Of a stretch of 64,000 nucleotides of DNA, positions 782 to 57,502 are shown one piece after another. The notes below the pieces were generated by a model. The model worked only from the letters and a program-made list of their open reading frames with translations. It was not told the origin of the DNA and did no database searches. How positions within the stretch are numbered: position 1 is the first letter of the stretch; the number at the start of each line of letters is the position of its first letter. The stretch comes from Hydractinia symbiolongicarpus (taxonomy: Eukaryota > Cnidaria > Hydrozoa > Anthoathecata > Hydractiniidae): positions 15,640,001 to 15,704,000 of the forward strand of contig NC_079880.1 in the NCBI RefSeq assembly GCF_029227915.1, read 5' to 3'. Made by a program: the position numbers and the translations under genes.

Positions 782-785
782 GGCT

Positions 786-4845: not shown

Positions 4846-4901
4846 TCTTTATTATATGGATTATATTTTCTCAGAGGATTTCATCTTGGTCAATACTAAC
4901 G

Positions 4902-7021: not shown

Positions 7022-7027
7022 TCATGT
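7022..7027. repeat. Left target-site duplication of Polinton B
   Basis: TCATGT, identical to 24991-24996. Six base pairs is the size known for Polinton insertions. Confidence 0.85.
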
Positions 7028-7301
7028 AGAGATAGAGAAATGTTCCTTCTAGCACAGGCGCACATCAAACACGCGCACACCACAGTCAAACACAACAAAT
7101 CCGCTGATCATCAAGTCCCTATAATGTTAAATCATACTAAAATGAGTAAAAATAATTCTGGCACACCTAGAGGTAAATTCCCCTGCACACTGCTGACGTC
7201 ATCAAAAATCAACGCATGCGCAGTAGCATCAGTGCTTAGTCATGCATAATAAATAAGTTCCCTAACATACAACAAATGAGCCCCCAACGCATGCGCAGTA
7301 G
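7028..7301. repeat. Left terminal inverted repeat of B
   Basis: Reverse-complementary to 24691-24990, with scattered substitutions and a gap of about 35 bases on the left. It contains a perfect TGACGTCA (7194-7201) and two CGCATGCG palindromes with the ACGCATGCGCAGTAG context. It probably carries the promoter of the polymerase transcript starting at 7361. Confidence 0.88.
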
Positions 7302-7360
7302 CTGTGTTAGTTTTGAGCAAGATGAAATCCTCCGACAATGAAAAATTTCATATAATAAAG

Positions 7361-10300
7361 ATGAACACACATACTGTAAAACAATTATGTGATATTGCGA
7401 AAAGCCGTGGGTTAACAGGGTATTACAGGCTACGCAAGGCTGAATTGATTGCCTTGCTGGAGGATGTACAACGAAAGCCAGTTAAGCCTATAACACCAGA
7501 TGATATGGATATTTTTGAGAGGCAAGAGATGCCAAAGACCCGTCCAACTATAGAGGGTAAAATCCGTGAATGGTATGATCGGATTTTACCGAAATCTGAA
7601 ATGGACACCTTTGAAAAGGATGAGATGAGAAAAAATCGTTCGATCGTGAAAACCAAGATGCATGGATGGTACAAATGGTTAGTGGACGCTGTTTCCAAGC
7701 CTATAAAAGAGGGAATCAAGAGAACCTATGCGACCTTCAAACGTAAAATTATGAATCTCTATAATGGGACAGATAACATCATCGCGAGACCTATGCTTCA
7801 TGATGAGGTGGAAAAAAGGCTGAGGAAGACTACCTCGAAGATACTAAAAACTATATGATCAGCCAGGGCAAGATCTTACACCTCAGGAACATAAGCACGC
7901 ACTGCATAAAACATTTCGAAGTTTCCGCATTTCTGGTGTAGGAGGAGCCGACGTCGATGGGTATATAATCGAGGACCAAGTAGGGGAAATGGGATCAGCA
8001 AAGGTACAGATGTCCCTATGGATCATGTGGAAGAAGAAGATACTACCAAAATCGGAGGAGGCTAACGACGAGTACATCGAGGTGAAGAAAGCCTTTAACA
8101 GCAAGATGACAGAAATCTTCCAGGGTAGCGACGTAGACGACGTGCTGGATAGGATGATTGCTGATATCAAACCACACGTGGAACATCTGGCACTACCCCA
8201 GAGTGGATCCACCATTAGTCCAATCCTACACCTTGATGTAGACTTTCATAAGCTACAACTAACAAGGGGTTCATCATATATAGAACTACCTAAATGGATA
8301 GCCTCAAAGAAGGCCATCATTAATCCAGTGAATGAAGATGAGGAATGTTTCAAGTGGGGCGTTATAGCATCCCTACACAATGCAGAGATGGGAAGGAACC
8401 CAAATCAAATATCTCATATGCAGCGATACGTAGACCTCTACAATTGGCAGGATATAGAGTTTCCGACAACCATCAAGGACATATCCAAGTTTGAAAAGAA
8501 TAACACGGACATTGCTTTAAACGTCTTGTATGTAATGGGAAAGAAGATCAATATCCTGCGGCGATCAGAACACAACATTGGGCGTAACAAGCAGGTGAAT
8601 CTGCTGCTTATCACAGATGAAGGAGACCTCGAAGAATAGGAATGCGATGTATTTCTGCCTGAACTGCCTACAGGCCTTTCCTACGGTTGAATCGAGGGAG
8701 AAGCATTATGGCTACTGCAAGGATCATGAAGCAGTCAAGGTCACAATGCCAAAGGAGGCTAAAAAATGGTTACAATATAGGGATGGTCAGATGCAGTTGA
8801 GGGTACCTTTTGCTGTATATGCAGATTTTGAGAGCCTACGCGTCCCAGTAGAAGATGCAAGGGGAATAAAGACAAAAAAACTGAACAAGCATGTACCGTC
8901 TGGTTGGTGTACCTATAGTACATTTGCATACGGCTCCATACTAGGTTCCCTAACAGTCTACAGGGGTGAGGATTGTGTCACGCGATTCGTAAACCATCTG
9001 GAGGAAGAGGCGAAGAGGTTATATAGGACATTCCCGCAACAGCCAATGTAAGAACTAACAGAGGTGTTAAAAAGGGAGCATGACGAGGCCAGAGAATATC
9101 ATATATGCTTAAAGCCGTTTAACGACGAGAATAACCGTAAAGTTCGGGACCGTTGTCACTATACGGGGTTATATAGAGGCGCGGCGCATAACAGCTGTAA
9201 CCTCAAATACAATATACCTAATCACTTACCTGTAATTTTCCACAATCTAAGCGGGTACGATGCGCATCTCTTCATCCGGGAATTGGGTGAAAAATATGAC
9301 AGCCAGGACATTGTTTGTATAGTTGAAAATACTGAAAAATAAATCAGTTTCAAAGTTAAATTCAAGGTACCACTTGCAGGTATGGGGTATGGAGATGGTG
9401 AGGTGTATAAGGAAATAGAGATCGGGTTCACTGACTCTTGTAGATTAATGCCCTTAAGTCTGGAAAAACTAGCAAGCAACCTCAACAATGAACAGTAGAG
9501 CTACCTCCCAAGGATGCATTCTACGCAAGCTGAATATGAGGGGGATCAGTGATGAGGATTATGTCTATGCGAAAAAGGTATGGAATTTCATTACCCCAGA
9601 GGGTGATAAGGTTACTATTGGCGGCTATCACGATGTGTACCTCGCCACAGACGTCCTGCTATTAGCCGACGTTTTTGAAACGTTTTGGGACGTATGCTTG
9701 ACAAAATAAAAGCTTGATCCTGCGCGCTTTTACTCCGCACCCGGTCTGGCATGGAAGGCGGCACTCAAGTTTACCGGAATTAGGTTAGAGCTCCTCACAG
9801 ATCCGAAGATGCTCTTGATGTTCAAAAAAGTTTTCCGTGGAGGTATAACCCAGGCGGTACACCGGTATGCGAGAGCTAACAACAAGTATATGGGAGACCA
9901 GTATAACCCGGATGAAGAATCCCCCTACCTGCAGTACCTCGATGCTAACGACCTATACGGATGGGCCATGGGTTAAGACCTCCCAACGGATACCTTTAAA
10001 TGGGTGTCAAATACTAAGGTATTCACCGAAGGGCGAAAAGCGAAACTCGTTAGCGACAATAAACATGGGTACATTTTAGAGGTTAATATCGAATACCCCG
10101 AGAGGTTACATGATAAACATAATGAGTTACCATTTTTACCCGAACACATGAGGATCAACAAAGTTGAGAAACTGGTATCAAATTTGAAAATATATATTGC
10201 ATATCAGAGCTGGATATATATTGCATATCGGAGCTCTCCATGAAGCTATAAGGCACGGGAGCTTAAGAAGGTGCATAGAGTCATTCAATTTAACCAACAG

Positions 10301-11179
10301 CCATGGCTTAAAGGGTATATGCATCACAACACCGATTTGAGAACAAATGCGAAGAACAAGTTTGAGAAGGATTTCTACAAGTTGATGAACCTCTCGGTGT
10401 TCGGCAAAACTATGAAGAACATTAGAAACTACCGCCACATTCAGCTGTTCACCAACGAGGAAAAGTATATGAAACTCGTGATGAGGCCCAACTTTAAAGG
10501 TGGAAGCCGGTTCAGTAAGCACCTCCTAGGTGTAGAGATGGGCAAGACGGAGGTCAAAATGAACAAACCGGTGTATAGAGGTCAAGTGATATTAGATATC
10601 TCAAAGCTAATCATGTATGAGTTCCACTACGACTATATGCAGCCCAAATATGGTAGCAAGCTGCAGCTGTGTTACATGGATACGGACAGCTTTGTGTACC
10701 TCATCCGAACAGAAGATTTTTATCGTGACAATGCGCAGGATCTTGAGGACCGTTTCGATGCGAGTGCCTATAATCCAGATGATGGGAGACCTCTTTCTAT
10801 AGGGAAAAACGAAAAGGTCGTTGGCCTCATGAAGGATGAATTAGGTGGGAAAATTATGACCGAGTTTATAACACTTAGAGCCAAGCTATATGCCTACGAG
10901 ATCCTCACAAAAGAGGGCTGTGACAGGAAAGCCAAGGGTGTTAAAAGATGCGTGACCAAAAAGTTTATCACTTTTGACGAGTATAGACGATGTTTGGAAG
11001 AGGGCGTTAATATCTACAAAGGTCAGGTGTTAATTCAAAACAAAAATCATCAGGTATACACACAAATCGTTAACAAATTAGCCCTTAATAGAGCGGATGA
11101 TAAAAGGCTCGTGCAGCAGGATCAGGTTACCACGCTTTCCCGTGGTCATTACCGTCGGTGTACAACTGAGTATGACTAA
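7361..11179 (+). pseudogene. polB: Protein-primed family B DNA polymerase (element B)
   Basis: About 1,270 codons, the most complete copy here. In order: SAP-like segment (residues 1-35), linker with DMDIF.RQEM, unknown conserved domain (HLDVDFHKLQLTRGSSY), zinc-like CLNCLQAF..HYGYC, exonuclease motifs (VYADFES, NLSGYDAHLF), palm motif A-like LDANDLYG (about 9940), motif B region KLMNLSVFGK (about 10378) and intact motif C YMDTDSF (10673-10693). Breaks: frameshifts near 7830 and 8620, TAA at 9049, TAA at 9340, shifts near 9495 and 9975, and a small AT duplication with shift near 10190-10250. The start follows TATAATAAAG. It would replicate the element from a protein primer; dead as it stands. 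Confidence 0.9.
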
Positions 11180-11701
11180 ATGGAAGTGTGTTTGTATATC
11201 GCCGTAATGCTACCCTATGCCCTGATCGTGTTTTTCTTTTTTCGTTACCGCCGTACTTTAAAGAGAATGTCAGAGCTTGCACAAATGTTTGACACAGCCT
11301 CAGAATCAACCTATGAGCATGTAGTGAAACCCACCGATAAACTCCAGGTCCTGAAAGAAGCCCTGCGTAAGGGCAAGGGGCATCTCCTACCCAAGAAATG
11401 TACAGAGGGGTTCATTGACAAGGCTCCTGATGAAGCCGTCGAAAAGGTACATGCTGAGTACGTACAACATGAGCTTCAAGAGAAGGGAGAGAAAACCGCT
11501 AGGGCACTATCTACTCACGTGGTCAGCCTATACGCGAACATGATTGGAAATGTCATAGATATCGACAATGTTGATGATTTATGTAGGGACATTGAAGAGG
11601 ATCCTCTAAATAGGAATAGCATGACAGATCTCAGGAGGTGTTTAGCTCCAATTTTGGTGGCGGGGCATACCGCGAGACATATGAGCAAAAAAAGAGGATG
11701 A
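11180..11701 (+). CDS. Membrane-anchored conserved Polinton protein (element B)
   Basis: A 173-residue open frame. It has an N-terminal membrane span (VCLYIAVMLPYALIVFFFF), basic residues, then a helical soluble domain with the family signature GKGHLLPKKCTEGFIDKAPDE. The polymerase stop TAA abuts its ATG (TAAATG). Relative to E it lacks about 11 residues near SMTDL and its last residues are in another frame, so the C-terminus is altered. It resembles a conserved cnidarian Polinton protein of unknown role, possibly an internal membrane or virion component. Confidence 0.7.
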   Translation: MEVCLYIAVMLPYALIVFFFFRYRRTLKRMSELAQMFDTASESTYEHVVKPTDKLQVLKEALRKGKGHLLPKKCTEGFIDKAPDEAVEKVHAEYVQHELQEKGEKTARALSTHVVSLYANMIGNVIDIDNVDDLCRDIEEDPLNRNSMTDLRRCLAPILVAGHTARHMSKKRG

Positions 11702-11745
11702 CGCGGAGGTGAAAGAGCCTTGAAGATCATGGCCTACATTGAAAT

Positions 11746-11773
11746 TTCTTATAAGCCGTAGGACTTGTAAGAA
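11746..11773. terminator. Intergenic hairpin before small membrane protein (B)
   Basis: The arms TTCTTATAAG and CTTGTAAGAA pair over 10 bp with one G-T wobble and an 8-base loop. It sits between two plus genes and touches the next ATG at 11774. Equivalent hairpins occupy the same slot in D (37962-37982) and E (52828-52851). Confidence 0.6.
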
Positions 11774-12127
11774 ATGAGTGAAGAAGAGAGACAACAAGAG
11801 AGAGTCATTACAAAGCCAGTAAAGCATCTGGGGCGTGTGCCCCAGGGACACAAGTTGGCGGCACTGATGAAGAAGAGGAAGGAAGAAATAAAACAACAAG
11901 AGGGTACTGTAGAACCTACAGTCAAAACTTCTTCTGGGGCCAGTTCCGTACAGTCAATAGACAACATCTACCTTTATGGTGTAGGGACTTTGGCCGTGCT
12001 TGCCATAGGAGATGTAGTCTGATACAAGTTTGGTAGAGGCAAAAGTGATGGGGGAACTAACAAGCTCACCTTTGAGCCTCAAAAGGGCAAAGCCCAGCCA
12101 CATATTGAGATTTTCAAAATGCTGTAA
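11774..12127 (+). pseudogene. Small basic single-span membrane protein (element B)
   Basis: A basic N-terminal half (ITKPVKHLGR..GHKLAALMKKRKE), a Ser/Thr linker, one hydrophobic span (IYLYGVGTLAVLAIGDVV) and an acidic/hydrophobic tail ending IEIFKML, as in E (DIDIFHMR). An in-frame TGA at 12020-12022 follows the span; reading beyond it stays in frame to 12127. Size and topology suggest a virion membrane protein. Function unknown. Confidence 0.65.
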
Positions 12128-16177: not shown

Positions 16178-17363
16178 TTAGTACTCAACGCTCTGGAAGC
16201 GGCCGTCTAGGACGTTCAGTTGGGCATCCTGAAGCAAATACACATAGCACCTGAAATCCCCAGTTCCGTCAGATTTCTTGGTCATGGGGAGGGTAATGCC
16301 GTCACTCAGACGTCGTAGGGGTCTTCCACTACCATGTAGGGTACGGTTAGGGGAAGCTCGGAAATTGATAAACAACGCATATTTCTCGTTGAAGAATTGG
16401 CCAACCGTGACGTTAGAATCGTGGCTGCCGAATAAATTGACGACCTGCTCCAGATGGTCCTTAGGAAGCATCGCGTGTGAGTACAATTCGTTAGACTCCC
16501 CCTCAACGGTGACGCTAATCTTCTCAATCTTAGGATTATAGAAGACCTCGTTGATACCGGAAAAAGTCTTCACTTTAGAAGGGTCCACAAACAATAATAG
16601 GATGCCTTTTAGGCTCTTTGCTGGAGTGTCAATCTGTAAATTATAGCTGGTGTCCTGTTTTTTTATGGTCACCACCTTGCTTCTTAGGATCTTTTCGTAG
16701 GGCAACGCTAGCCTTGCGTAACGGGACATCATAGCACTCGCTAAACACTCTTGAGTGACTTTGTCGAATTTTAACTTGATATTTGTGATTTTATTTGCGG
16801 CATCGGCCGGCATCTTTGATCACGTCGCTATGTGGAGCAAAATGTAGGACAAATTGGAGGCGGTCATGGAGCCTTGCCTGGTAAAATGGCAAGTCTCTCG
16901 TCAACTTAAAGAGCTTGCCCAAAGGAATACAGAAAGTATTACTATACGCTGCAGCGATGGGTTTTTCTTCATCAGTGCCAACATACTCGGTAGCTTTAAC
17001 ATGTAGGGCCCTGATGGTCCCATCGTTGGGGTTGATCCCTTCTAAGATGACGTTGTTGTCTCTATCAAATTTGGGTAACCATAAGTCCCTGTAGACCGCC
17101 AGGGTGCTGAAATCGCTAATATTCTGTACCTCGTTACCCTGAACGTTAATACGTAGATCGCGGACCAGGCTTTTGCTATGTTGTTGACTGCCCGGAAAGA
17201 TGACATCATTCTGCCCCATGTTGGGAATATCCACATATAGATCTTAATTCTGGTTAATTGTGGATGGCATGTTAGATATCTGAACCCTTTGTCTTCCACC
17301 TTTGATACCGAAGAGCTGCTTCGTCTCTGCGTAGGGGTCTAATGTTGTTCCAAACGCACTCAT
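16178..17363 (-). pseudogene. Candidate double-jelly-roll major capsid protein, copy 1 (element B)
   Basis: About 395 codons remain. Conserved blocks: SLVRDLRI, YRDLWLPKF, CIPLGKLFKLTRDLPFY, LHDRLQFVLHF, SRYARLALPYEKILRSKV, GILLLFVDP, FYNPKIEKISVTVEG, YALFINFRAS, LHGSGR, DGITLPMTKK and a terminus ending DAQLNVLDGRF. It is assigned as capsid by conservation, length near small DJR proteins and position; this is inference. A TAA near 17246, an internal deletion near 17186 and a frameshift near 16805 break it. The start at 17363 faces the coiled-coil gene start at 17393. Confidence 0.6.
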
Positions 17364-18531: not shown

Positions 18532-18731
18532 CGTCTAGGACGTTCAGTTGGGCATCCTGAAGCAAATACACATAGCACCTGAAATCCCCAGACCATCTGG
18601 AGCAGGTCGTCAATTTATTCGGCAGCCACGATTCTAACGTCACGGTTGGCCAATTCTTCAACGAGAAATATGCGTTGTTTATCAATTTCCGAGCTTCCCC
18701 TAACCGTACCCTACATGGTAGTGGAAGACTT
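18532..18731. repeat. Scrambled duplication junction with micro-inversion
   Basis: 18532-18590 copies 16205-16264 in the same orientation. About 18591-18729 is the reverse complement of 16321-16459. Then the sequence resumes at the equivalent of 16567. It joins the two 2.16-kb copies. Confidence 0.9.
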
Positions 18732-19524
18732 CACTTTAGAAGGGTCCACAAACAATAATAGGATGCCTTTTAGGCTCTTTGCTGGAGTGTCAATCTGTAA
18801 ATTATAGCTGGTGTCCTGTTTTTTTATGGTCACCACCTTGCTTCTTAGGATCTTTTCGTAGGGCAACGCTAGCCTTGCGTAACGGGACATCATAGCACTC
18901 GCTAAACACTCTTGAGTGATTTTGTCGAATTTTAACTTGATATTTGTGATTTTATTTGTGGCATCGGCCGGCATCTTTGATCACGTCGCTATGTGGAGCA
19001 AAATGTAGGACAAATTGGAGGCGGTCATGGAGCCTTGCCTGGTAAAATGGCAAGTCTCTCGTCAACTTAAAGAGCTTGCCCAAAGGAATACAGAAAGTAT
19101 TACTATACGCTGCAGCGATGGGTTTTTCTTTATCAGTGCCAACATACTCGGTAGCTTTAACATGTAGGGCCCTGATGGTCCCATCGTTGGGGTTGATCCC
19201 TTCTAAGATGAGGTTGTTGTCTCTATCAAATTTGGGTAACCATAAGTCCCTGTAGACCGCCAGGGTGCTGAAATCGCTAATATTCTGTACCTCGTTACCC
19301 TGAACGTTAATACGTAGATCGCGGACCAGGCTTTTGCTATGTTGTTGACTGCCCGGAAAGATGACATCATTCTGCCCCATGTTGGGAATATCCACATATA
19401 GATCTTAATTCTGGTTAATTGTGGATGGCATGTTAGATATCTGAACCCTTTGTCTTCCACCTTTGATACCGAAGAGCTGCTTCGTCTCTGCGTAGGGGTC
19501 TAATGTTGTTCCAAACGCACTCAT
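18732..19524 (-). pseudogene. Candidate major capsid protein, copy 2 fragment (element B)
   Basis: Duplicate of the 5' two thirds of the gene above. It carries the same internal deletion, stop and frameshift, so the copying followed inactivation. The 3' third is present only as scrambled pieces in 18532-18731. Confidence 0.7.
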
Positions 19525-34350: not shown

Positions 34351-34356
34351 TAGGAT
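34351..34356. repeat. Left target-site duplication of Polinton D
   Basis: TAGGAT, identical to 46983-46988. Confidence 0.8.
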
Positions 34357-34600
34357 AGTAGATAGTAGCAATGAACATAAGTACGTTTGACCTCCTTTCC
34401 AACCTTTACCCAGTCAAACCTCCGCTTCCACCCCCTCCACCCCCACCCCAGCCCTACCCTCCCAAAATCGGAAAATCCGACGGCATCCGAAAAAGTAATC
34501 CGATAGCATCCAGAACCCGATAATTCTTGGACATGCGCACACGCTATTAGTAATATTGCTGACATCAACAAAATTCAGAGCATGCGCAATTCAGTATGTG
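34357..34600. repeat. Left terminal inverted repeat of D
   Basis: Inverse of about 46740-46982. C-rich here (CCACCCCCTCCACCCCCACC), so G-rich on the other strand. Ends inward with GCATGCGCAA. Confidence 0.85.
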
Positions 34601-42420: not shown

Positions 42421-43704
42421 CTAATACATTACATCTTCTACCCTACCATCCAAAATGTTTAACTGCGCGTCTTGGAGCAAGTATACATAAAATGTAATAT
42501 CACCGGTTCCGCCGGCCTCCTTGGTCATGTGCAAAGTGATCCCATCGCTAATTCTTTGCAAGGGCCTACCCGAACTGTGCAGCTTATTATCGTTGGAGAC
42601 TCTAAAGCCTATGAAGAGTGCGTATCTACTCGTGAAGAACTGGTCTATGGTTACTTTAGAGTGTGCACTTCCAAACAGTCCTGCAACTTGCTTGAAATGG
42701 TCCTTGGGTAGCATGGTGTGACTGTATAGTTCGTTCGGTTTACCTTCCACGGTGATCGCGATTTTTTCAATCCTGGGGTTGTAGAACGTCTTGTTTACGG
42801 CAAAGTATGGTTTCACTTCGGCAGGGTCTTAAAACAGTAATAGCACGCTTTTTAAAGACTTTGCTGGTGTATCGATCTGAAGGTTGTAGCTGGTATTCAC
42901 CTTTTGCATTTTCACAACTTTGCTACGGAGCACTCGCTCATACGGCAGCGCTAGCCTTGAATACCTTGACACCATAGCACTAGCCAGGCCTTCGTGGTAT
43001 ACCTTGTCAAACTCGAGCGCAATATTGGTAATTTTGTAAGTTGCATCTGCGGGTTTAGCTTCTACAACACTGGATCCAGACGCCGACCGGGGTGTGCCTT
43101 CATCTTTGATGACGGCGCTATATGGCGCAAAGTGCAGCACAAACTATAGTCTGTCGTGCAAGCCCGCTTTATAGAAGGGCAAGTCTCTCGTTAGCTCGAA
43201 GATTTTGCCGAGCGGGATGCAAAAAGTGTTGCCGTACGCCTTCGCGATGGCCTTCTCTTCACCATCTCCGGGTTTGAATGTAGATTTAACTTGCAGTTGC
43301 CTGGTTGCTCCATCTGGCACACCAATACCTTCGAGTGTGAATTCGTTTTCGCACTCAAATTTGGGCAGCCAAAGGTCCCTGTACACCGCAAAGGTGCTGT
43401 AGTCGCTAATGTTCTGCACCTCTCTGCTATTTAGAGGGATGCGAAGGTCTCGCACCAGGGTCTTACCAATTTTATTAACGATCGTGCGATTCGTGTTGGT
43501 CCCCGTGATTTCAAGATCAAAGAGGAGTTTGAGGGAGCCGGGGCAAATGACATTGTTCATGTCCATATTGGGAATGTTCACGTACATGTCCTCCTTCTGG
43601 TTAATCGTGCTGGGTGTGTGTGATACTTTCACACGCTGTCTCTTCCCCTTTATGGTGAGCATAGTGCTCGTTTCTTCGTATGGATCTAGTTCAATTCCGT
43701 ACAT
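42421..43704 (-). pseudogene. Candidate double-jelly-roll major capsid protein (element D)
   Basis: 428 codons in a single frame from MYGIELDPYEE (start taken at 43704, after ACTAATAAAC; an upstream ATG at 43725 is also open). Only two in-frame stops (43141-43143 and 42826-42828), so it is the best-preserved frame of this family. All family blocks are present, including LVRDLRI, YRDLWLPKF, CIPLGKIFELTRDLPFY, SRYSRLALPYERVLRSKV, YALFIGFRVS, LHSSGRPL and DAQLNILDGR. Capsid identity is inferred from conservation and context. Confidence 0.62.
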
Positions 43705-43723
43705 GTTTATTAGTAGAGTTTCC

Positions 43724-44972
43724 ATGACGATTTCACGGCGGAGGAAGACCTTGACCGTGGGGGAGAGCAGGGATCTTTCAGCAGATCCGAGGACATTCCT
43801 GGGTCTACCCCAACATCAGAAGAGCGGGGTCAATCGCCTAGCGGAGATATCACGACCTACGCAAGGGGAGAGTTGCTCAAATCGAAGGTAGACGATCTTC
43901 GTGATCTCCTAAGTAAGGAGCTACGCAGCCAATTGCGAAAATGTACGCAAAATTTAAAGCACGAGGAAACCAGCTCCTTTTCGATGGTGTGGAGCTTACA
44001 AAGGGGAGGGAGAATTGAGAGCTGTTGTCGAGATACAGAGGAGGTTGGGTGCGAAACGCCTACGAGCCATAAGCTTTACCGACTATAACACACCACACAA
44101 GGGCAGTAAGACGATGGCTCAAGGACTCCTTAACGAATTGGAGAATGTCAATAAAAAGGCTGATGAAATCGAGATGCTGCCACTACTCGGGAATGTTCTA
44201 GGCGAGACGGAGAGTCTTATCGAAGATACTTCATTTGGCGGGGATGGAAGCTTCTCGGAACGTGAAAGAATAGGGCTCAACCTCGAGCTTCAAACGCTAA
44301 GAGGCAATCTGAGGAATCTGAAAAGCAAGATGATCTTCTTTGATAGCGAGATAGACAAAGCAGAGGCCAAGGTGAAACGTCTCGAGAGCAAGAAAACTAC
44401 GCCTGGAGTATCTGAGGAGCAGCTAGCTATCTGAAATGAAAACATCGCGAAGGCCAGGGAAGAGATAGAGGGACTCCGTCAACAGAAGGAAGAAGCACGA
44501 AAAGCGCACGTTTTACTTTCTTCAGATACCCAGAGACAACTGAAAGCAATCAAGGATACTCTAATGAAGATTGCCGGGGATGCCACATCTTTACTAGAAA
44601 AGCTCAAGATATTGTTCAAGGAACAAGGCTTGACTATCGCAAGCATAGTCTCCGCCTTTGGCTCGTATCAACCATCGTGCTCGCTGTTACTGGAGGTGGT
44701 GGAGATGCTGCTGGAGTTGCTGCCGCTGGTGGTGGGAAAGGTTTTGTACGGAAACAGCTTGAAAGACTCGGGAAATTCCTGAAGTACCTAGCAGGTAAGG
44801 CTGGCTCAGCCCTGCCGGAAATATTGGTAGTGTTGTATCGTTCTTTTTCAGAGTTACGGCTAAGATTGTGGAATTTTCAGCCAAGCATCTGTACATGGCT
44901 TTGGTTGCTGCTATGGGTATTGTTGTTGCGTATGTGGGCAACAGGAGAAGTAAGGGTGGAAAGAGATCATAG
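43724..44972 (+). pseudogene. Coiled-coil, glycine-rich membrane protein (element D)
   Basis: Acidic DDFTAEEDL N-terminus in a shifted frame, YARGELLKSKVDDL, then KPHKGSKTMAQ-like block (PHKGSKTMAQGLL), a coiled coil (44300-44540), FKEQGLTIASIVSAFG, Gly/Ala linker, KGFVRKQLERLGKFLKYLAGKAGSALP and a final span (MALVAAMGIVVAYVG) with basic end GGKRS. Frameshifts near 43870, 44010, 44435, 44670 and 44820. Confidence 0.62.
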
Positions 44973-46739: not shown

Positions 46740-46982
46740 CATCACCTACTCAACTGCGCAATCTCTATTTTTGTTGATGTCAGCATCATGTCAGTCGCTA
46801 TTGCGCATGCGTTGCATTTTATCGGAATCGGATTTGTTTTTGGAATTTTTTTCGATGCCGTCGGATTTTCCGGATTTGGGAGGATGGAGCTGGGGTGGGG
46901 GTGGAGGGGTAGAATCGGGGGTTTGACGGGGAAAAGGTGTGAAAGGAGGTCAAACGTACTTATGTTCATTCCTACTATCTAT
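46740..46982. repeat. Right terminal inverted repeat of D, G-rich
   Basis: Inverse of 34357-34600. Contains GCGCATGCG (46802-46810) and a run of G tracts about 46878-46938 (GGGG.GGGGG.GGAGGGG) able to form G-quadruplexes. Confidence 0.85.
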
Positions 46983-46988
46983 TAGGAT
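46983..46988. repeat. Right target-site duplication of Polinton D
   Basis: TAGGAT, identical to 34351-34356. Confidence 0.8.
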
Positions 46989-47118: not shown

Positions 47119-48632
47119 GGTGCAAATATCCGTTGAGCAATTAGAGCAGAGACAAATGAAGATTGTCCAAAAAGTCAAAAAGATATATCCCAAGCCGGAT
47201 GATTTCGATATGCTCCCGGAACTCAAAATGCTCTGCACGAATGGATTAATCAAGTGACAGTGATCGGTTTAAACAGCAGCAAGAACGATATCAATATGAT
47301 AAAGCGGTATTTTGTCGAACAAATTGCGGATGAGGCTAATATCAAAGTGGCGAAAAAAGATAATGAATACATGTTTTCCACGGAACGAGGCGTATGAGCT
47401 TCTGCAAACAGGGATGGTAGGTGGCCCAGCGATCGTATTTTGCAGGTATCATGAGAGTGATGTGACGGGTATTTGCTCACATATTTATACTGAGCCAAAA
47501 AATACAAGACTATACTCGGGTATGACGCCAATATGCTCTACCCAAGCACACTACTACAAGATTTCCCTTGTGGTAAGGAGAAGCTGTTAAAAATGGCAGA
47601 CCCTGTTGGAGAATTAGATAATCTGGTGCAGAGCATTATAGACGGAGATCTCTTCGGATTTGCCCAAGTTGATATTGAGGTGCCTACTGAGTTGTACGAA
47701 AAATTCAGTGAAATGTCGCCGTTATTTGTGGTTAGAGAGATCCTTGATAGCCAAACACCGAGAAGATCCTGCTTTGTACGGACCTGCTTAAATGGTATAT
47801 TAATCATGGGTTAAAGATTACGGCTTGCTATCAAATACTTAAATACTCACGGGGTAAACCATTCGCATGGTTCCCGGAAGAAATTGCGGATGCGCGTCGT
47901 CAAGCTGATAAGGACCCTGATAAACGTATTGCGGGCGATACAGAAAAATTGAAAGGGAACTCGTTCTACGGGAAGATGATAGAGGATTTGGCGAGACATA
48001 ACAATACCACATTTACGAAGGATGAGAACGCAATAGATGCTGCAATGAGGAGCCCTTACTTGGAGGATTTGGAAGAAATCGGAGATGCGTATGAATTAAG
48101 GAGGAGTACACAGGGGGTTTTGATAAATAGGGCATATCAATGTGGAATCCTTGTATATCAATTGGCCAAGCTGCGGATGCTCGAATTTTACTATGATTTT
48201 CTTGACAAGTACGTAGATCGACGAGATTTCGAATATGTGTATAGGGATACAGACTCAGCGTATTTCGCAATCTCTGGAGATGAGCTACGTAATGTTGTTC
48301 GTCCTGAACTACTCGAGCAGTACGATGAGGCAGTGCCTAATTGGCTTGTTACTGACAAACACTCGAGTAGAACCGGAGGGTTATTCAAAGAAGAATTAAT
48401 AGGATCCAGAATGATAGCGCTGACAGCCAAGTGCTATTTCGTCGAAGGTAAAAAAGGCACGAAATTCTCCTGCAAGGGCATGTCGAAAAGGCAGAACGAA
48501 GTGACATGGTCAAGGTACATGGGAGCATTAAAAGGAGATTTAGACACTGCAAAAAATGTAGGCCGGGTCTATCAGCTTTTTACGATAAAAGGTTTGTGCA
48601 TGAGGATAACGTGCACACCTTTCCACTTATGT
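47119..48632 (+). pseudogene. polB: Family B DNA polymerase, C-terminal part (element E)
   Basis: TVIGLNSSKNDINMIK (exonuclease-side block), KKDNEYMF, then after a deletion ELLQTGMVGGPAIVFCRYHE, motif A GYDANMLYPS (about 47519), motif B KGNSFYGK (about 47952), motif C YRDTDSAYF (about 48238) and the end DKRFVHEDNVHTFPL. All catalytic Asp codons are kept. Frameshifts near 47385, 47515, 47765 and 48590. The lineage is that of D, not of A/B. The N-terminus is absent. Confidence 0.85.
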
Positions 48633-48659
48633 AAGAATAGTGTGGGGTTTGTCCAAAAG

Positions 48660-48684
48660 TTTTGTAAGGTGATACCTTACAAAA
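48660..48684. terminator. Hairpin after polymerase (E)
   Basis: TTTTGTAAGGT/ACCTTACAAAA, 11 bp with a 3-base loop, 27 bases past the polymerase end. Confidence 0.7.
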
Positions 48685-48695
48685 TGTAACAAAAA

Positions 48696-49196
48696 ATGGA
48701 GGAGACCAAGTGCTGTTCAAACTGTAAAAAAACTTTATCTTTTGATAATTTCGGGATCAACAAGCGCAATGGGCAACGGACAAAACAATGTATCAAATAC
48801 TTGGGTAGTCATAATGCGTCATATAAACGAAACAAATGCCATCATGGAAAAAGATATTATAGGGATTGTGATTTCCCGGGGTATATGCATCAACTTATTC
48901 TCCAGCGGCTTCGCGATGCTCTAAACCATGACACGCAGTTAGCCTCCACCGAATACATAGGGTGCGGTATCTGCACATTCATTGGTCACATCCAAGATCA
49001 ATTCAGAGACGGGATGAGCTGGAACAATATGGGTGCTTGGCAATTCGAGCACAGAATCCCCATTAAATATAGAGAGAACGGGGTATATCCAAGCGAAGAA
49101 GTGCAACTCGCGAGGCTCCACTATACAAACATGCAGCCAATGTGGATTGCGGAGAATCAAAAGAAAGGTTGTAAATATATCTCTTCTTCAGTATGA
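48696..49196 (+). CDS. HNH endonuclease 1 (element E)
   Basis: 166 residues, intact. Cys pairs CCSNCKK and a Cys/His stretch (CIKYL...NKCHHGK, YRDCDFPGY), then a helix (ILQRLRDALNHDTQLASTEYIGCGI), and the HNH core GMSWNNMGAWQFEHRIPIKYREN with the terminal LHYTNMQPMWIAEN. One of two HNH genes bracketing the RNA polymerase gene. Likely a DNA-cutting enzyme, possibly selfish. Start after AAAAAATGG. Confidence 0.78.
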   Translation: MEETKCCSNCKKTLSFDNFGINKRNGQRTKQCIKYLGSHNASYKRNKCHHGKRYYRDCDFPGYMHQLILQRLRDALNHDTQLASTEYIGCGICTFIGHIQDQFRDGMSWNNMGAWQFEHRIPIKYRENGVYPSEEVQLARLHYTNMQPMWIAENQKKGCKYISSSV

Positions 49197-49233
49197 GTCG
49201 GTAAAAACAAGAACAAACTCATTTGCCACATCC

Positions 49234-49260
49234 ATTCAGAAATGATAAACATTTCTGAAT
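49234..49260. terminator. Hairpin after HNH 1 (E)
   Basis: ATTCAGAAATG/CATTTCTGAAT, perfect 11 bp with a 5-base loop. Confidence 0.7.
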
Positions 49261-49261
49261 A

Positions 49262-49780
49262 ATCAAGAGGTTTTCTGTATGATGCGTAAATGACCTAACC
49301 GGTGATGCGTGAATTTTCACACAGGTAATACTCAAGGTGATACTGAATAGCTATATACGAAGCTCGATATATAGTAAGATTGTGGTACCAGGCTTAGACC
49401 TGGCTGAAGGGTACGGTTGAGCGGGCGAGACCATGCCTTACTTGGAGGCGGCCGTCTCACCCCGGTTTCTACCACACACTGTGCCAGTCGGGAAAAATTG
49501 TGCCAAAATGCCGGTTAAATGTCAGTGCTAGGAACGGCCTCTGAAAGTGCTCACTTAAAAAGGTGGGTTTCGTTAATGCGTAGTACAAGCACGACATTCT
49601 GTATAGAGTATAAAGAGCAAGTACGCTAAGCCTGCAAAGCAGGACAGCGCTGAAAAACACCTCGAATATGGAAAACCAAAGGCTCTGAGTGGTATACTCG
49701 CAGAATCAAAAACCCTTTGGGTTAAAAATATAAAAAATACACCCAGAGGGTTCCCTTACGAGGGTTTTGTTTTAGAAAAA
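49262..49780 (+). ncRNA. Candidate structured non-coding RNA (element E)
   Basis: About 500 bases with no long frame but dense pairing: CTATATA/TATATAG, GTACC/GGTAC enclosing CCAGG/CCTGG, CGGGCGAGAC/GTCTCACCCCG, CCTGC-AAA-GCAGG, GCGTA/TACGC, AGGTG with CACCT at long range (about 49571 and 49663), TCTGAGT/ACTCGCAGA and AACCC-TTT-GGGTT. Higher GC than the neighbouring spacers. No match to rRNA, tRNA or RNase P that I can recognise, and no clear group I core. Strand is assumed from the neighbouring genes. Confidence 0.4.
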
Positions 49781-49901
49781 CATGCTATGTGAGATATACC
49801 TATGTCTCGCTGTACTCCTTCCGTACACAAATATACAGCCCATGTGGTGGTAATCCATCACACTATCTGCCCTATTTTTTGCTTGACCTACACATTATAT
49901 C

Positions 49902-49931
49902 AAATTCTCCATGGTATATCATGGAGAATTT
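49902..49931. promoter_or_regulatory. Palindrome over RNA polymerase gene start (E)
   Basis: AAATTCTCCATG/CATGGAGAATTT, perfect 12 bp with a 6-base loop; the right arm contains the ATG at 49921. Confidence 0.65.
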
Positions 49932-51279
49932 AACCTATTTTAAATTATTGGGTATGATCAAAGACGTACTGCGTGGGCAGTGCACTAATCAGACACAGAT
50001 GGATATGCTCGTGGATGATTATGAAAAAATGATAAAGACCGCCATAGACGAATTTGGAGAGGGGGATTCTACGTGACGAGACGCTATGGAAAAAGTTGGC
50101 GGAAGAATTCGCATCATATCATAATTCACGCAAAACAAAGACTGGTGACACTGTAGGTATCATAGCAGCACAATCCATTGGAGAAACCAGCACACAGCTA
50201 TCGTTGAATTTTTTTCATTCAGTTGGATATGCTAATTCGACGCTGTTACAGGGTGTTCCACGTTTGAAAGCACTTATAGATGCATCGAAAGCCAAACATC
50301 CCATTAATATAGTAAGGACATCATTAAGTGATGTGGAGGTACTCGATAATGTCGTGGGATGAAGTCTACGGGAGGTTAGGCTGCATGTACTAATAAGGAC
50401 ATTTGATGTTATTGATAATCCCAATCCAATATGGCACAATAAGTGGATGGAACGACATCCCAAAATTGACGGATCGACTATAATTCGCCTTCATTTAGAT
50501 TTTAACAAATTGTTCTATTTTAAAGTTCATCCAGATATGATCGAAGTGGCCATTAATACATTTTTTTCAAAGGATGGTGGAGTAGCAATCGCATAACCGG
50601 TGGGGCTCGGAATCGTTGATGTTTTCACCAGCAACAAAACGAGCCCTGTGCCTGCCCTTGTGGAGGATGATTGCTCCAAATACCTGACGGTCACTTTTCA
50701 TATGACCTGGAATCAGAACATGGGAGCTTTGTTAATAGAATCCGACCGGCACGATACCAGCGAATCCAATACGCCTCCAATGTACTGTTGAAACTCGTTA
50801 TTTATGGAAAAAAAGATGTGATTAATGCTACATATTCCAGGGAGGATGATGGTACATGGAGCATCTACGCAATTGGTGGCTCCCTGGGAGATTTATGTAC
50901 GCTTTTATTTGTAGATGAACGAAGAAGTACATCCACATGCGTGCATCAGATCTCTCAGCATTTTGGCATAGCCGCGGCATGTATGTATATACAACGTGAA
51001 TTACATAAAGTCACGGGTGATAGTGTCAATAATGCCGATGCTCAATTGGTGGCTTCCTTTATGACATTTACTGGTACATCCATGACACGGTACACTATGC
51101 GAGATCAAAGCGGTGCTCTAGGCCGGGCTGCATTTGAGGAGCCGGTTGATATGTTAGTATCTGCTGCCATTAATGGAGAAGTAGATGGTCTATCTGGATG
51201 TTCATCTGCAATCGTTTGTGGAAAAGCACCACATGTTGGAACGAATGGGAACATATCATTATTGTATCGTGCAGGCTGA
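49921..51279 (+). pseudogene. rpb1-like: RNA polymerase largest subunit (Rpb1), C-terminal part only
   Basis: About 450 codons. The 5' half has TGDTVGIIAAQSIGETSTQ and LSLNFFHSVG..N....GVPRLKALIDASK, the trigger-loop region of Rpb1/beta-prime. The 3' half has MTFTGTSMTRYTMRD, LGRAAFEEPVDMLVSAAING and GCSSAIVCGKAPHVGTN, the end of Rpb1 domain 5. No heptad tail. Frameshifts near 50066 and 50705 and in-frame stops near 50360 and 50594. The catalytic N-terminal half is absent from the window; the extent resembles the separate archaeal A'' subunit. Divergence from eukaryotic Pol I-III (TSTQLSLNFFH) suggests a viral lineage. Absent from B and D. Confidence 0.85.
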
Positions 51280-51291: not shown

Positions 51292-51314
51292 TTTATGAAT
51301 TACGTATTCATAAA
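51292..51314. terminator. Hairpin after Rpb1-like gene (E)
   Basis: TTTATGAAT/ATTCATAAA, perfect 9 bp with a 5-base loop, 13 bases after the stop. Confidence 0.68.
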
Positions 51315-51324
51315 GTGTAAAAAA

Positions 51325-51859
51325 ATGGAAGAAATCAAGAAATGTTCAAACTGTACAATAGCTTGTTCTTTGGATAATTTTAGAATGAAGCGCAATGGGC
51401 AATGGACCAAAAGGTGTATCAAATACTTAGATAATGCAAGGGCATCAAAGGAGCGAAATAAATGCCACCATAAAAAAACAGCATGGCTTTTGCAAAGAGT
51501 ACGATTTCCCTGCATATATGCATGGGCTAATTCTGAATAGGATTAAGAATGCTCTAATCCATGACACGGAGATAGCATCCACCGAGTACCTGGGGTGCGG
51601 GATCTGTACATTTATCTGGCATATACAAAAGCAATTCAAAGATGGAATGTGCTGGAGCAATCGAGGGCAGTGGGAATTTGATCATAAAATACCTGTTAAA
51701 TATCAAGAAAATGGTGTTCCACCTAGTATGGAGACGCAGCTCGCTAGGCTCCACTACACTAATATGCAGCCATTGTGGGCAATTGAAAACCAATCGAAAG
51801 GCCATCGATTTATAACACTTTATACACAAAGCTGCAAAAAATGGATGCATTGCTATTGA
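51325..51859 (+). pseudogene. HNH endonuclease 2 (element E)
   Basis: Paralogue of HNH 1: KKCSNCTIACSLDNFRMKRN, CIKYLDNARASKERNKCHH, then after a one-base shift near 51480 the part STEYLGCGICTFI, GMCWSNRGQWEFDHKIPVKY and LHYTNMQPLWAIENQ. Start after AAAAAAATGG. Its end overlaps the next ATG (51841). Confidence 0.72.
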
Positions 51860-52372
51860 TCACGATTCTACTCCCTTATATATTGATACTTGCTTGTTTC
51901 TATCGCTGATATTTTTTATACAGAAACCGTTACGAAAAAACCTGATAAACGCCAGGCTTTGAAGGAAGCGATACATCAGGGAAAAGCACATTTATTACCA
52001 AAAAAATGTAGTGAGAGTTTTATCGATAAGTGCACGGGGGATGTAATTGAAATAATTCATGCTAATTTCATTCAACATGAATTCCAGGAAAAAGGGGAGA
52101 AAACTGCAAAGGCTTTGTCAACTCATGCCATTAATATGTATACGAAAGCCATAGGCAATATTGTACCTCTCGATAACCCAGAAGAACTAAGGAGGGATAT
52201 TGAGGATGATCCAATAATAGGAGATAGTATGGCTGATTTGGGAATTCTCGTTTATACAGCGTTTGGCAAATTTTTAGCGCCCTTGCTCGTTGCCGCGCAT
52301 ACAATTAATCACACAAAACTTTCACAGTCCATTGATGAAAAGGAAGAAATAGAGAAAGAAAAGAATGTTTGA
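51841..52372 (+). pseudogene. Membrane-anchored conserved Polinton protein (element E)
   Basis: N-terminal span (LLLITILLPYILILACF), one shift near 51897, then SIADIFYTE, KRQALKEAIHQGKAHLLPKKCSESFIDK, HEFQEKGEKTAKALSTHAINM, DDPIIGDSMADLG and FGKFLAPLLVAAHTINH with a charged end. Apart from the shift it is complete and overlaps the next gene by 8 bases. Confidence 0.7.
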
Positions 52373-52826
52373 AGAATTGGAAACAAGGCTTTTCGAAGAG
52401 ATTGTCATTCCACCTCCGGAACTTGGCGACATAATAGGAAATGTTTATACCCGACTACGGCAAATGTATATAGACACATCTTCCCACATCCTAGGCATTG
52501 GATTGAGCATTTCAGATGTGGATATCGGAGACGTTACTACTGACCCCAGCGATGGCGAGTGTATGGCCAGCGTGTATTTTACATTGAAACATGTTATTCC
52601 TAAACTGTGTCAAATCATATCACCCACAAAGGTGCAAAATTCTAATCCGGAGGTTATCTCCTTTGATAATTCAGACTATAAAATAGCAATCCGGTTTAAT
52701 GGTGACGATGATGATGAATATGAGATTACACTATGCCAGTACGTGGATCATGGTTGGAACAACCAGCTGCTGTCTTCCATCAGATTTGTATGTGTTTCCA
52801 CAGGTCCCTCGTGGTTAGGGAAGTGA
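52365..52826 (+). CDS. Conserved-looking 153-residue protein, possible Rpb7-like
   Basis: Intact frame. N-terminal beta/alpha part (LETRLFEEIVIPPPELGDIIGN, LGIGLSISDVDIGDV) then SVYFTLKHVIPKLCQII and an acidic beta-rich C-terminus. The order of a P..LG helix, a DIG turn and a VYF..K..IPK..QI strand recalls the tip domain of Rpb7/RpoE, but the similarity is by eye and weak. It is unique to E, as is the Rpb1-like gene. It may equally be an unrelated virion or early protein. Confidence 0.3.
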   Translation: MFEELETRLFEEIVIPPPELGDIIGNVYTRLRQMYIDTSSHILGIGLSISDVDIGDVTTDPSDGECMASVYFTLKHVIPKLCQIISPTKVQNSNPEVISFDNSDYKIAIRFNGDDDDEYEITLCQYVDHGWNNQLLSSIRFVCVSTGPSWLGK

Positions 52827-53457: not shown

Positions 53458-53485
53458 TTGTTGTATGCCCATGGGCATACAACAA
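53458..53485. terminator. Perfect 28-base palindrome before ATPase (E)
   Basis: Arms TTGTTGTATGCCC and GGGCATACAACAA around AT (CCATGG centre), 16 bases after the previous stop and 2 bases before the ATPase ATG. Confidence 0.75.
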
Positions 53486-53487
53486 AC

Positions 53488-54073
53488 ATGAATATTGTTA
53501 AAGATCTATGCACTACAATATTCACTGGGTCCACGGGATGTGGAAAAACTCAACGAGTTCTCGATCATGTGGAAAATGAATACAGGCACTATTTCCACAA
53601 CATAGTAGTTTTGTGTCCAACGATCCGGTGGAACACAACGTACTTGGAGAGATCCTCGCTATGGAAGGATGACTAGATTTTTTTGATAGAACCGCAGGAT
53701 TTGAATGGATTGAACGATTATCAAATATCCTCGCCGGTGAGAGCACACTCTTCATAGTTGATGACATGATCGCGGATGAATCCATGGATAAAAAACGCCG
53801 GAGCCTGCTTGAATTAGCCATTAGCGGGAGGCACAGGAAGCATTTGGTATGGCTGTTGACTCAGAGTTATACCGCAATTCCAAAAACCTGAGGAGGCAGA
53901 AGAAACAGTTATTCATGTGGTATCCGCACGAAAGGAGTGACATGAAATTGATGGATGAAGAGACAAACATAATTAACGACTGGGAAGCGATCAAGAATCA
54001 GTTAAAAAAATCCAAACATGCCTGTTTGTATATTAGACTGGACCATCCCAGAGCCTGGAGTATAATGGATTAA
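53488..54073 (+). pseudogene. Genome-packaging ATPase (element E)
   Basis: About 195 codons. P-loop FTGSTGCGKTQ, VVLCPTIRWNTTYLERSSLW, Walker B LFIVDDMIADE, LELAISGRHRKHLVWLLTQSY and NLRRQKKQLFMWYPHERSDMK. One TAG at about 53674 and one single-base deletion near 53698 are the only breaks. The family powers DNA entry into preformed capsids. Confidence 0.8.
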
Positions 54074-54979: not shown

Positions 54980-55771
54980 CTACCAATCTTTCACATTCTC
55001 GGGAGGTATTTCAACATTTTCGGGCATCAGTAGCAATTCCTCTGACACGAAACTCCGATTGGGACCTCCATCGAGATAGTATAGCAGACGGGTACCTGTC
55101 ACGATACGATCCAGCCTGTAAGTACGCTTCGACCAAAAGGCATCAGTCGCGCGTCTTTTTTGATCCCCATGTTCTTCCCCAGGCTGCAGGAAGTACAAAT
55201 AGAGCCTCGAACTCGGACTCCACGAACGCTGTGAACGTATGGTGATATTTAGTAGTTGCCCTTTTAATATTGACACCTTTGGCTTCTAACAGCTTGGTCA
55301 TATCAGACTTAAACTCTGACCCATTATCGCATTGGAATTGTTGAGGATAGCGGAGACGTCCGGCCTTGTATATGTCCTTGAGCATGTCGGCTACTTCACT
55401 AGCTTTCTTAGTACGTAGCGGTCTTGCCACCTTATACCTCGAGGCAACGTCAATGCCTGTGAGGATATATTTGTACGTATTGCCATACAATTTATCATGT
55501 GGCATGTATAAGAGATCAAACTGGTGCATCTCATTGGGTCTCGTTATGGTGAAATGAGGGTAATTGATACGCTTTGGCCCTCGAATATGCCTGAGTCAGA
55601 GCAACTGACGACTCAGCCAGTGCATAACTCTCTTTTTTGAGAGGCCAGAGTTTTCAGCGAGCAGTTTGACCGCTTTCCGTCCAATCCAGAGATTTTCTGG
55701 AGAATAGTAGATTTGATTTAGCTTTTCAGCTTCCTCCCCGGTAATGATATGTGCTTTTGTTTTCCACATCT
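54980..55771 (-). pseudogene. int: Retroviral-type integrase (element E)
   Basis: EEAEKLNQIYYSPENLW, RITRPNEMHQ-like lead (TRPNEMHQFDLLYMPHDKLY), TGIDVASRYKVARPL, CDNGSEFKSDMTKLLEAKG and HTFTAFVESEFE: the D, D and E positions are all visible. A deletion near 55215 joins the core directly to the C-terminal YRLDRIVTGTRLLYYLDGGP in another frame. A stop lies near 55597. The start at 55771 follows GATAAAAG. Confidence 0.82.
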
Positions 55772-55797: not shown

Positions 55798-56195
55798 CTA
55801 TGCCCATTTGTAAGCCGCAAGGCCGAGCAAGGCCAACGATCCCACTATGAAGCGAATTCACCGTCTTTTTGGCCTTTGCTAGGTGTGTAAAAATCTGAGA
55901 GCTTTGGGGCCTTCTCTATGGTTGCAATGAAATACTCCCGCATTCTTTCGTCGAGCTCCTTGAGACTCTCCCCAGCTTGCCTTTGTTCCTCCCTTCTCTT
56001 ATTGTATGCATCAATCTTCGCTTGCCTATCCCTTACCCATTGGGCTTGGGCAGCTTGCAGCTTTTCAACCGCTAAATCATGACGTTTTCTTTCTTCCTCG
56101 CCGTGCCCACTGAGTTTGCTGAACAAAAAAATTGACCCACTGAAAGCCAGAGCATTGATCGATGCTCCTCCAGCAAGAACTGCTATAGTTGCCAT
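55798..56195 (-). pseudogene. Coiled-coil membrane protein KLSGHGE family (element E)
   Basis: IAVLAGGASINALAF, FSKLSGHGEEERKRHDLAVEKLQ, coiled coil, SDFYTPSKGQKDGEF, one shift near 55852, then a span (IVGSLALLGLAAYKWA) and stop. Start in AAATAAATGG. Confidence 0.7.
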
Positions 56196-56198
56196 TTA

Positions 56199-56223
56199 TT
56201 TTGTAGACACAAGGCCTACAAAA
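56199..56223. terminator. Hairpin after capsid gene (E)
   Basis: TTTTGTAG/CTACAAAA, 8 bp with a 9-base loop, 15 bases past the capsid stop on minus. Confidence 0.6.
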
Positions 56224-56238
56224 ACAAATTTTGATCTC

Positions 56239-57502
56239 TTAATATTCTACACTGTGGAACCTGCCATCCAGGATGTTTAATTGCGCGTCTTGGATAGGGA
56301 AGACGTAGCACCTAATATCTCCATTGCCATCCGCTTTTTTCGTCATGTGCAGGGTTATACCGTCTGAAAACCTTTGCAGAGGCCGCCCACTACCATGTAG
56401 GCCCGATCAGGTGTTGCCCTGAAATCAATGAATAGCGCATAGCGCTCGGTGAAAAATTGACCTATGGTCACTTCACTATCATGGCACCCAAATAATTCAA
56501 CGATCTGCTGCAAATGATCTCGAGGGAGCATAGCATGTGAATACAGCTTATTGGGCTCACCCTCCACCGTGACAGAAATCTTCTCGATTTTGGGATTGTA
56601 GAATTGTTCATTGACACCCGCATAAGCCTTGGATACTCCAGGATCGACAAATAGTAGTAATATACCCACCAAGGATTTAGCAGGGGTATTGACTTGGAGA
56701 TTGTAGGATGTATCACATTTCTTCATAGTCACCACTTTACTCCTTAATACTCGTTCGTATGGTAGGGCGAGGCGGTTGTATCGCGACATCATAGCGCTCA
56801 TAGCACTAATTTTTCAAACTCGAGCGAAATGTTAAAGATTTTGTATTTAGCGTCAGCTGCCTTGGCTGCGGTTGAGCCCGCGGCTGGTGTACCGGCATCC
56901 TTGATTACTTGATCGTATGAAGCGGAATGTAGAACGAACTGTAGCCTATCGTGGAGTCCATGTTGATAAAAAGGGAGATGCCTCGTCAACTCGAACATTT
57001 TCCTGAGGGAGATCCAAAAGGTGTTTCCATACGCCGCGGCTATAGCACGCTCCTTATTTGTTCCTACATGGTCAGACGCTTTTACCTGTAAAGCGCGATT
57101 TGTCCCGTCATTTGGATTGATTCCCTCCAAAATCAGATTGTTCTCCCTATTAAATTTCGAAATCCAGAGATCACGGTAGACACTGAATACATAATAATCC
57201 GCAATATGCTGGACCTTATTCCCATTCTAAGTAATACGAAGGTCCCTCACAAGGACTTTTCCGATGTTGCTAACAATAGCACGCTTGGTATTCGTGCCGG
57301 TCAGTGCCATATCAAATAGTAGCCGGATACTCCCAGAAAATATAACATCGTCTCGACCCATGTTTGGTATTTCCACATAGAGATCCTCATTCTGGCCAAT
57401 CGTGTACGGTACATGACTCACCTTAACCCGCTGCCTCTTGCCTTTGACAGCGAGCATAGTCTTGACTTCCTGATAAGGGTTTAGTCTTCCGAAAGTATTC
57501 AT
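56239..57502 (-). pseudogene. Candidate double-jelly-roll major capsid protein (element E)
   Basis: 421 codons. Starts MNTFGRLNPYQEVKTML; LYVEIPNMGRDDVIF, IRLLFDMALTGTNTKRA, KVLVRDLRIT, DRLQFVLHS, SRYNRLALPYERVLRSKV, LLLFVDPG, YALFIDFRA and an end DAQLNILDGRF..VEY. A stop near 57226 and frameshifts near 56800 and 56395 are visible. The start is in CTAAATAAATG, divergent from the next gene with 29 bases between. Confidence 0.62.

Follow-up and report, generated by a model that had tools for sequence, protein, structure and literature searches.

The window analysed here, a 64,000-nucleotide stretch of the 481 Mb Hydractinia symbiolongicarpus assembly (C6:15640001-15704000), contains a Polinton, termed 'element E', that spans positions of approximately 47.1 to 62.3 kb and that carries a homologue of the largest subunit of RNA polymerase. 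The element comprises (Table 1) the remains of a DNA polymerase gene (polB), an HNH-endonuclease-like gene (HNH1), the RNA polymerase homologue (Rpb1C), a second HNH-like gene (HNH2), two further genes (X and Y), an A32-like ATPase, an rve integrase on the opposite strand and a block of probable virion genes.

Table 1. Features of element E and of the insert within it, numbered by position in the window
Feature	Position	Strand	Basis
polB remains, N-terminal part missing	47121..48689	+	Motifs by eye (KGNSFYGK, DTDS; YDANMLYPS in relatives)
HNH1, HNH-endonuclease-like, upstream of Rpb1C	48696..49196	+	ORF, homologues; family by eye
Conserved non-coding stretch; its end encodes X-like first residues MLCEIYLCLAVLLPY	49187..49826	+	Comparison with L152-L155 (without insert), where X follows directly
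Left insert junction; X N-terminus joined to HNH C-terminus-like piece (YTNIQPMW)	49826..49827	.	Homology with L152-L154 stops
Rpb1C, A''-like C-terminal part of RNA polymerase largest subunit, broken	49921..51279	+	PF04998; PDB phmmer (L012, L011); frame changes and stops
Trigger-loop region GDTVGIIAAQSIGETSTQLSLNFFHSVG...GVPRLKALIDASK	50138..50338	+	Translation; Pfam profile 67-121; tblastn (giant-virus Rpb1, bacterial rpoC)
C-terminal conserved block FVDERRSTS...FEEPVDML...GKAPHVGTN	50860..51246	+	tblastn with giant-virus Rpb1
Right insert junction	51270..51279	+	Homology with L149 (without Rpb1C) resumes in last 10 nt of coding sequence
HNH2, second HNH-like gene, frame-broken, directly 3' of Rpb1C	51312..51859	+	ORF, homologues
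Gene X, short protein with N-terminal hydrophobic stretch, common Polinton gene here	51841..52372	+	ORF, homologues
Gene Y	52365..52826	+	ORF, homologues
A32-like packaging ATPase, in pieces	53458..54070	+	Pieces 90-92% identical to L012 ORF, itself matching Pox_A32 at 35.4 bits
rve integrase	54980..55529	-	Pfam rve 42.1 bits for 55143-55529
Four ORFs at place of virion genes, putative capsid	55845..57502	-	Homologues in other elements

The polB and virion labels in element E rely on position, on motifs recognised by eye and on weak Pfam scores: DNA_pol_B_2 reaches 13.3 bits (below the cut-off) in a related element (L012), no Pfam polB match was obtained for four other polB pieces, and Capsid_N, which had no match among the element E ORFs scanned, reaches 13.1 bits (also below the cut-off) solely for positions 43144-43725 of the neighbouring 'element D'. 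The HNH genes, for which no Pfam HNH family match was obtained, were assigned by eye from their H..P, N, N..K pattern. Element E is left-truncated, because a search of it returned nothing for the N-terminal part of polB; only element D yielded terminal inverted repeats (34356-34494 and 46847-46984). Elsewhere in the window, positions 1-11926 form a long imperfect inverted repeat of ten arm pairs, 79-88% complementary (5-4592 versus 7594-11926), as if two related elements lay head to head. A 99% identical direct repeat (16564-16863 and 18725-19024, at a spacing of 2161 bases), alongside which the ORFs at the capsid position are also repeated, is probably a recent local duplication.

Rpb1C extends from the trigger-loop region of the largest subunit to its C-terminal GT block. 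The motifs by which the original prediction had recognised it are all present on the forward strand (GIIAAQSIGETSTQ, LNFFHSVG and GVPRLKALID in one frame, and FEEPVDML...GKAPHVGT in another), and the interval that it proposed agrees with the ATG (MENLTYFK) at 49921 and with the stop codon at 51277-51279. The suggested comparison with the Pfam profile RNA_pol_Rpb1_5 (PF04998) gave 56.6 bits (E 3.7e-15) for positions 50054-50362, well above the cut-off of 28.5 bits; the C-terminal part of the window copy (50671-51279) scored 19.3 bits (E 8.6e-4), short of that cut-off, which the same part attains in two other copies (31.5 bits in L012 and 28.5 bits in L011). When the N-terminal part of L012 was compared with PDB sequences using phmmer, an archaeal A'' chain (4qiw_C, 46.2 bits) was the top match, accompanied by many beta' and Rpb1 chains among the best 60 of the 93 distinct sequences matched. 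The C-terminal part of L011 matched archaeal Rpo1C (36ro_C, 51.9 bits) and Pol II (50.4 bits), with no bacterial chain among its 37 matches, and tblastn alignments of giant-virus Rpb1 and bacterial rpoC fall on the trigger-loop region. The Leu-Asn..Phe-His residues of the trigger loop are important, and the corresponding Q.SLN.FH pattern is kept in seven of the eight copies that were read (copy C14c has no match to it). A chance match is ruled out by these Pfam and PDB results together with the existence of eight similar copies; the presence of a largest-subunit homologue within a Polinton, given its rve and A32 context, is therefore real. Of the expectation that a C-terminal part with its own start and an extent like that of archaeal A'' would be found, the extent and the start codon hold, and the intact gene does not: the window copy is spread over two frames with stops, running in a first frame to approximately 50061, in a second (with in-frame stops) to approximately 50680, and in the first again to 51276. 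No introns were seen in Rpb1C, in contrast to the three host Rpb1 genes, which are split into exons.

Used as a genome-wide query, the Rpb1C protein matched 16 times, at nine loci spread over five chromosomes; of the 17 matches to PF04998, 7 belong to elements and the other 10 to three multi-exon loci (C3, C5 and C8). Given the nine loci, an assembly artefact is an unlikely source of the insert. Frame changes or stops are found at every one of the eight Rpb1C loci read, the ninth being a 40-residue match. Polintons themselves are very abundant in this genome: first-look searches returned 1635 candidates when gene X was the query and 1376 when it was the HNH gene. Among the 150 candidates scored for each of these two genes, many are without stops.

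The insert is missing from eight related Polintons (L036 and L149-L155) and from element D. The gene order in these relatives is polB-X (L036), polB-HNH-X (L150, L151 and element D), polB-HNH-HNH-X (L149) or HNH, approximately 620 nt of non-coding sequence, and X (L152-L155). In the carriers of Rpb1C, HNH1 is followed by the same non-coding stretch as in L152-L155, running into the first residues of X (MLCEI.LCLAVLLPY); at position 49826 of the window this X start abruptly becomes the HNH C-terminus-like sequence YTNIQPMW, after which come Rpb1C, HNH2 and a second, longer X. That short piece has a 24-nt exact match to L149, and its identity as HNH sequence is suggestive only. In a search with a query across the left junction, for which 40 of 154 candidates were scored, five Rpb1C carriers align through query position 676 and the other 35 end at positions 547-647, with 11 of the 35 ending at 646 or 647, which is the junction. 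The junction is aligned across in seven of the eight copies read (C7 starts after it); because it is shared, a single founding recombinant is probable, and Rpb1C was apparently gained only one time, with swaps among transposons afterwards. The suggestion that the gene had been 'captured' is thus upheld by the relatives without the insert and by the chimeric junction, and the slot occupied by HNH genes may be an entry place for cargo into Polintons. An alternative delineation of the insert, in which it comprised Rpb1C plus approximately 0.7 kb upstream, was dropped, as other Polintons also have that upstream stretch, located between their HNH gene and X.

The non-coding stretch of approximately 620 nt has features of its own. 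It is 87-95% identical among five Polintons and is missing from L149-L151, while the HNH proteins adjoining it in L152-L155 share only 60-75% identity with the L011 HNH1; its longest stop-free run is 66-100 codons, and no Rfam family matched it at threshold. It may be mobile or under constraint.

Comparison of the copies indicates that Rpb1C and its surroundings have different histories. Between C9b and C14b, dS is 0.042 for the N-terminal part of Rpb1C and 0.193 for its C-terminal part, versus 0.43-0.65 for polB, HNH2, X and A32 (HNH2, 0.59; HNH1, compared between C9a and C14b, likewise 0.59), and sliding identity between C14b and C9b, at 90-97% in Rpb1C, is mostly 75-89% across HNH1, HNH2, X and the end of polB. 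At four-fold degenerate sites Rpb1C differs less than its flanks in all five testable pairs (C8 lacks a comparable flank, and C9a was not included), significantly so in two: C7 (7/148 in Rpb1C versus 38/211 in the flanks, Fisher p 1.5e-4) and C14b (12/138 versus 107/305, p 8.9e-10). The remaining three point in the same direction without reaching significance (C6w, p 0.14; C14a, p 0.41; C14c, p 0.084), and in the comparisons with C14a and C6w a large part of the flank reaches the similarity of Rpb1C itself. For two pairs, these site comparisons show that the stretch was exchanged by recombination between diverged backbones. Such exchange is general rather than special to Rpb1C, because the comparisons with C14b and with C7 each have a second tract of low divergence (91-97% identical) in the later part of A32 and beyond; the elements are mosaics in general. 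Homing of the cassette driven by the HNH genes is not supported as its cause, because HNH1 and HNH2 diverge with the backbones and not with Rpb1C, and recombination between co-resident elements is enough to account for it.

The original prediction had placed element E in, or as a borrower from, a lineage with its own transcription machinery, for which the remaining parts of a polymerase would be expected. Six-frame searches of the 481 Mb assembly found no Rpb1 active-site domain (PF00623) in the elements, all nine matches lying at three host loci, and no Rpb2 (PF00562) in the elements, all 14 matches lying at three other multi-exon loci that are presumably the host second subunits. Consistent with this, archaeal A', giant-virus Rpb1 and bacterial rpoC, used as tblastn queries, located the A' half in the host loci and gave no A' match in the window or in eight other element stretches. 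Of the host Rpb1 loci, C3, which carries YSPTSPS heptads, is taken as Pol II, with C5 as Pol I and C8 as Pol III by similarity and elimination. Within the reach of six-frame searches, the Polintons of this genome carry only the A''-like part. Because the active-site half and the second subunit are missing, the Rpb1C product could not be a polymerase alone; an element-borne polymerase is ruled out in this genome, and the idea of an independent transcription machinery, with every copy read also broken, was not borne out. Alternatively, Rpb1C would be the last remnant of a complete Polinton-borne polymerase (A', A'' and Rpb2), comparable to those of yeast linear plasmids or giant viruses, the rest of which has disappeared. 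An A''-like unit with its own start would fit such a history, and viral models of similar length exist (403 residues in Klosneuvirus and 423 in an ascovirus); it is nonetheless very improbable in view of the host-only distribution of PF00623 and PF00562, of the examined relatives, which have no polymerase gene at the position of Rpb1C, and of the sharp insert junctions, which enclose Rpb1C and HNH sequence only.

The source of the captured gene was approached through trees and a structure search. Trees were built separately for the N-terminal part (144 columns) and C-terminal part (140 columns), with 17 rows each; references were 7 of 34 IMG/VR loci (19 + 15, with contigs partly shared) and 5 of 80 genome loci, or 12 of the 17 reference loci tried (L047, L050, L052, L053 and L060 were dropped), with Pol III left out of the C-part trees and the giant-virus group left out of the N-part approximately unbiased (AU) tests. 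The Rpb1C branch is very long (4.3 and 1.6 changes per column in the N and C parts), and no placement was rejected, either for the N part (Pol I, p 0.339; Pol II, 0.107; Pol III, 0.103; archaea, 0.33; bacteria, 0.457) or for the C part (Pol II, 0.35; Pol I, 0.15; L018/L020/L022, 0.377; L017/L019/L024/L048, 0.055). In the best C-part tree Rpb1C joins the archaea, weakly (58/72). Two observations concern the viral references themselves: the Rpb1 proteins of L017 and L019 end in YSPTSP-type heptads like those of the Pol II C-terminal domain, and that of L048 has a long in-frame extra segment within the trigger-loop motif (TLNS...ACRDTFHFAG), possibly an intein.

The 333-residue uninterrupted ORF of L011 gave a structure model of moderate confidence (pLDDT 64, pTM 0.53, with 99 of 333 residues below pLDDT 50), whose PDB matches include archaeal A'' and the Rpb1 of Pol II (best E 2.3e-14, first match 7oqy_C) and whose first match among the viral models of BFVD is RPB1 of Invertebrate iridescent virus 3 (E 5.3e-17, 21% identity). 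Together with the GTN ending that Rpb1C shares with L017 and L019, this last match makes a giant-virus donor a lead rather than a result; six IMG/VR scans returned no close relative. A bacterial origin was set aside despite the N-tree value, the beta' likeness being local to the N part and bacterial chains being missing from the C-part PDB matches. The host is a further candidate donor, through a retrocopy or exon capture from Pol I, II or III, and the AU values for those placements (p 0.10-0.35 over both parts) are compatible with it. The trees did not place Rpb1C within a host clade, however, and the low identity to host exons (47% in the case of the short exon that holds the Pol II trigger loop), the very long branch, the residues at conserved positions (IGETSTQ and GTN in Rpb1C versus LGEPATQ and GTG in host Pol II) and the lack of visible intron traces make such an origin rather improbable.

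The preserved fold and motifs make long-term constraint on Rpb1C clear. Constraint during its recent spread appears to have been at best weak: dN/dS between copies, pooled over non-independent pairs, is 0.51 over the C9a ORF, 0.66 over the C14a ORF, 0.80 for the N part and 0.51 for the C part. These values are barely below, or inside, the neutral expectation, for which simulations gave medians of 0.75-0.85 and 95% ranges of approximately 0.5-1.4 at 120 substitutions and 0.3-2.8 at 20; polB and X in the most diverged pairs have values of 0.14-0.21. Since Rpb1C lies near or within the neutral range, function during the spread is not supported. It might accordingly be argued that Rpb1C is a functionless passenger, a viral or cellular Rpb1 fragment picked up by accident in break repair and copied as part of the element, as would also be in keeping with its presence at only nine loci where Polintons are so numerous and with the broken state of all copies read. 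That account is somewhat doubtful, as the fragment would by accident comprise one complete A''-like unit, with its own stop and a start near that of archaeal A'', as the trigger-loop motif has survived in most copies read, and as dN/dS of the C part falls to 0.25 and 0.30 in two pairs.

The reading that we prefer, at a probability of roughly 60%, is that an A''-like gene was captured into the HNH slot, spread and was exchanged, with a product that perhaps bound a complete RNA polymerase. A Polinton would have captured a stand-alone A''-like gene into a slot held by HNH-endonuclease-like genes, and recombination would then have put an HNH end, Rpb1C, HNH2 and X into the gene X of an ordinary backbone; this recombination is shown by the junction, and the order of events is what we infer. 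The recombinant element would have multiplied to at least nine loci, with the Rpb1C stretch swapping among diverged backbones by recombination, as other stretches of the elements did, and with the eight copies read having since become broken. The product of an intact gene would, as a best guess, have bound a complete polymerase, either the host's own or one supplied by a co-infecting large DNA virus, acting as a substitute or a competitor for the matching part. A more specific notion, which is unlikely, is that some Polintons make a free A''-like trigger-loop protein to divert transcription to the element, the protein either inserting into or competing for the RNA polymerase that the host or a co-infecting giant virus provides; if true, the gene would be a virophage-like transcription parasite carried in a transposon.

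The capture of Rpb1C illustrates a way for RNA polymerase genes to join the gene pool of Polintons, and provides a multi-copy example with insert-less relatives and a readable junction. Polintons have been placed near the root of the giant viruses and linear plasmids, and according to the excerpted text of Sykora et al. 2018 there had been no report of transcription genes from Polintoviruses (both PMC6211774). The original prediction had taken multisubunit RNA polymerase genes to lie outside the known Polinton gene set. The available portions of that paper and of six others (PMC10328495, PMC11071296, PMC11071308, PMC12220804, PMC10120064 and PMC6431247) report no RNA polymerase subunit in a Polinton. 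Such a gene as Polinton cargo is therefore provisionally new, with respect to a partial literature that excludes the stony-coral polintoviruses.

Rpb1C is cargo and not a transcription system. It is like archaeal A'' (Rpo1C) in its extent from the trigger loop to the C-terminal block, and archaeal A'' is its top PDB match in both sequence and structure; unlike that subunit, it has no A' or B gene for company in the elements searched, and it is only 19-23% identical to three archaeal A'' proteins. With the Rpb1 of the nucleocytoplasmic large DNA viruses (NCLDV) it shares the GTN ending and the iridovirus match, but the giant-virus-like sequences (L017-L024) lie in ORFs of 991-1509 residues that extend well N-terminal of A'' and are not stand-alone A'' proteins. 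The yeast cytoplasmic linear plasmids (pGKL) are likewise selfish elements with RNA polymerase genes, and, in the passages of PMC6211774 that treat them, carry a two-subunit RNA polymerase, a capping enzyme and a helicase, where element E has one A''-like part. Element E itself is like the Polintons/Mavericks in its polB, rve integrase, A32-like ATPase and probable virion-gene block, and departs from the known ones in carrying a homologue of an RNA polymerase subunit.
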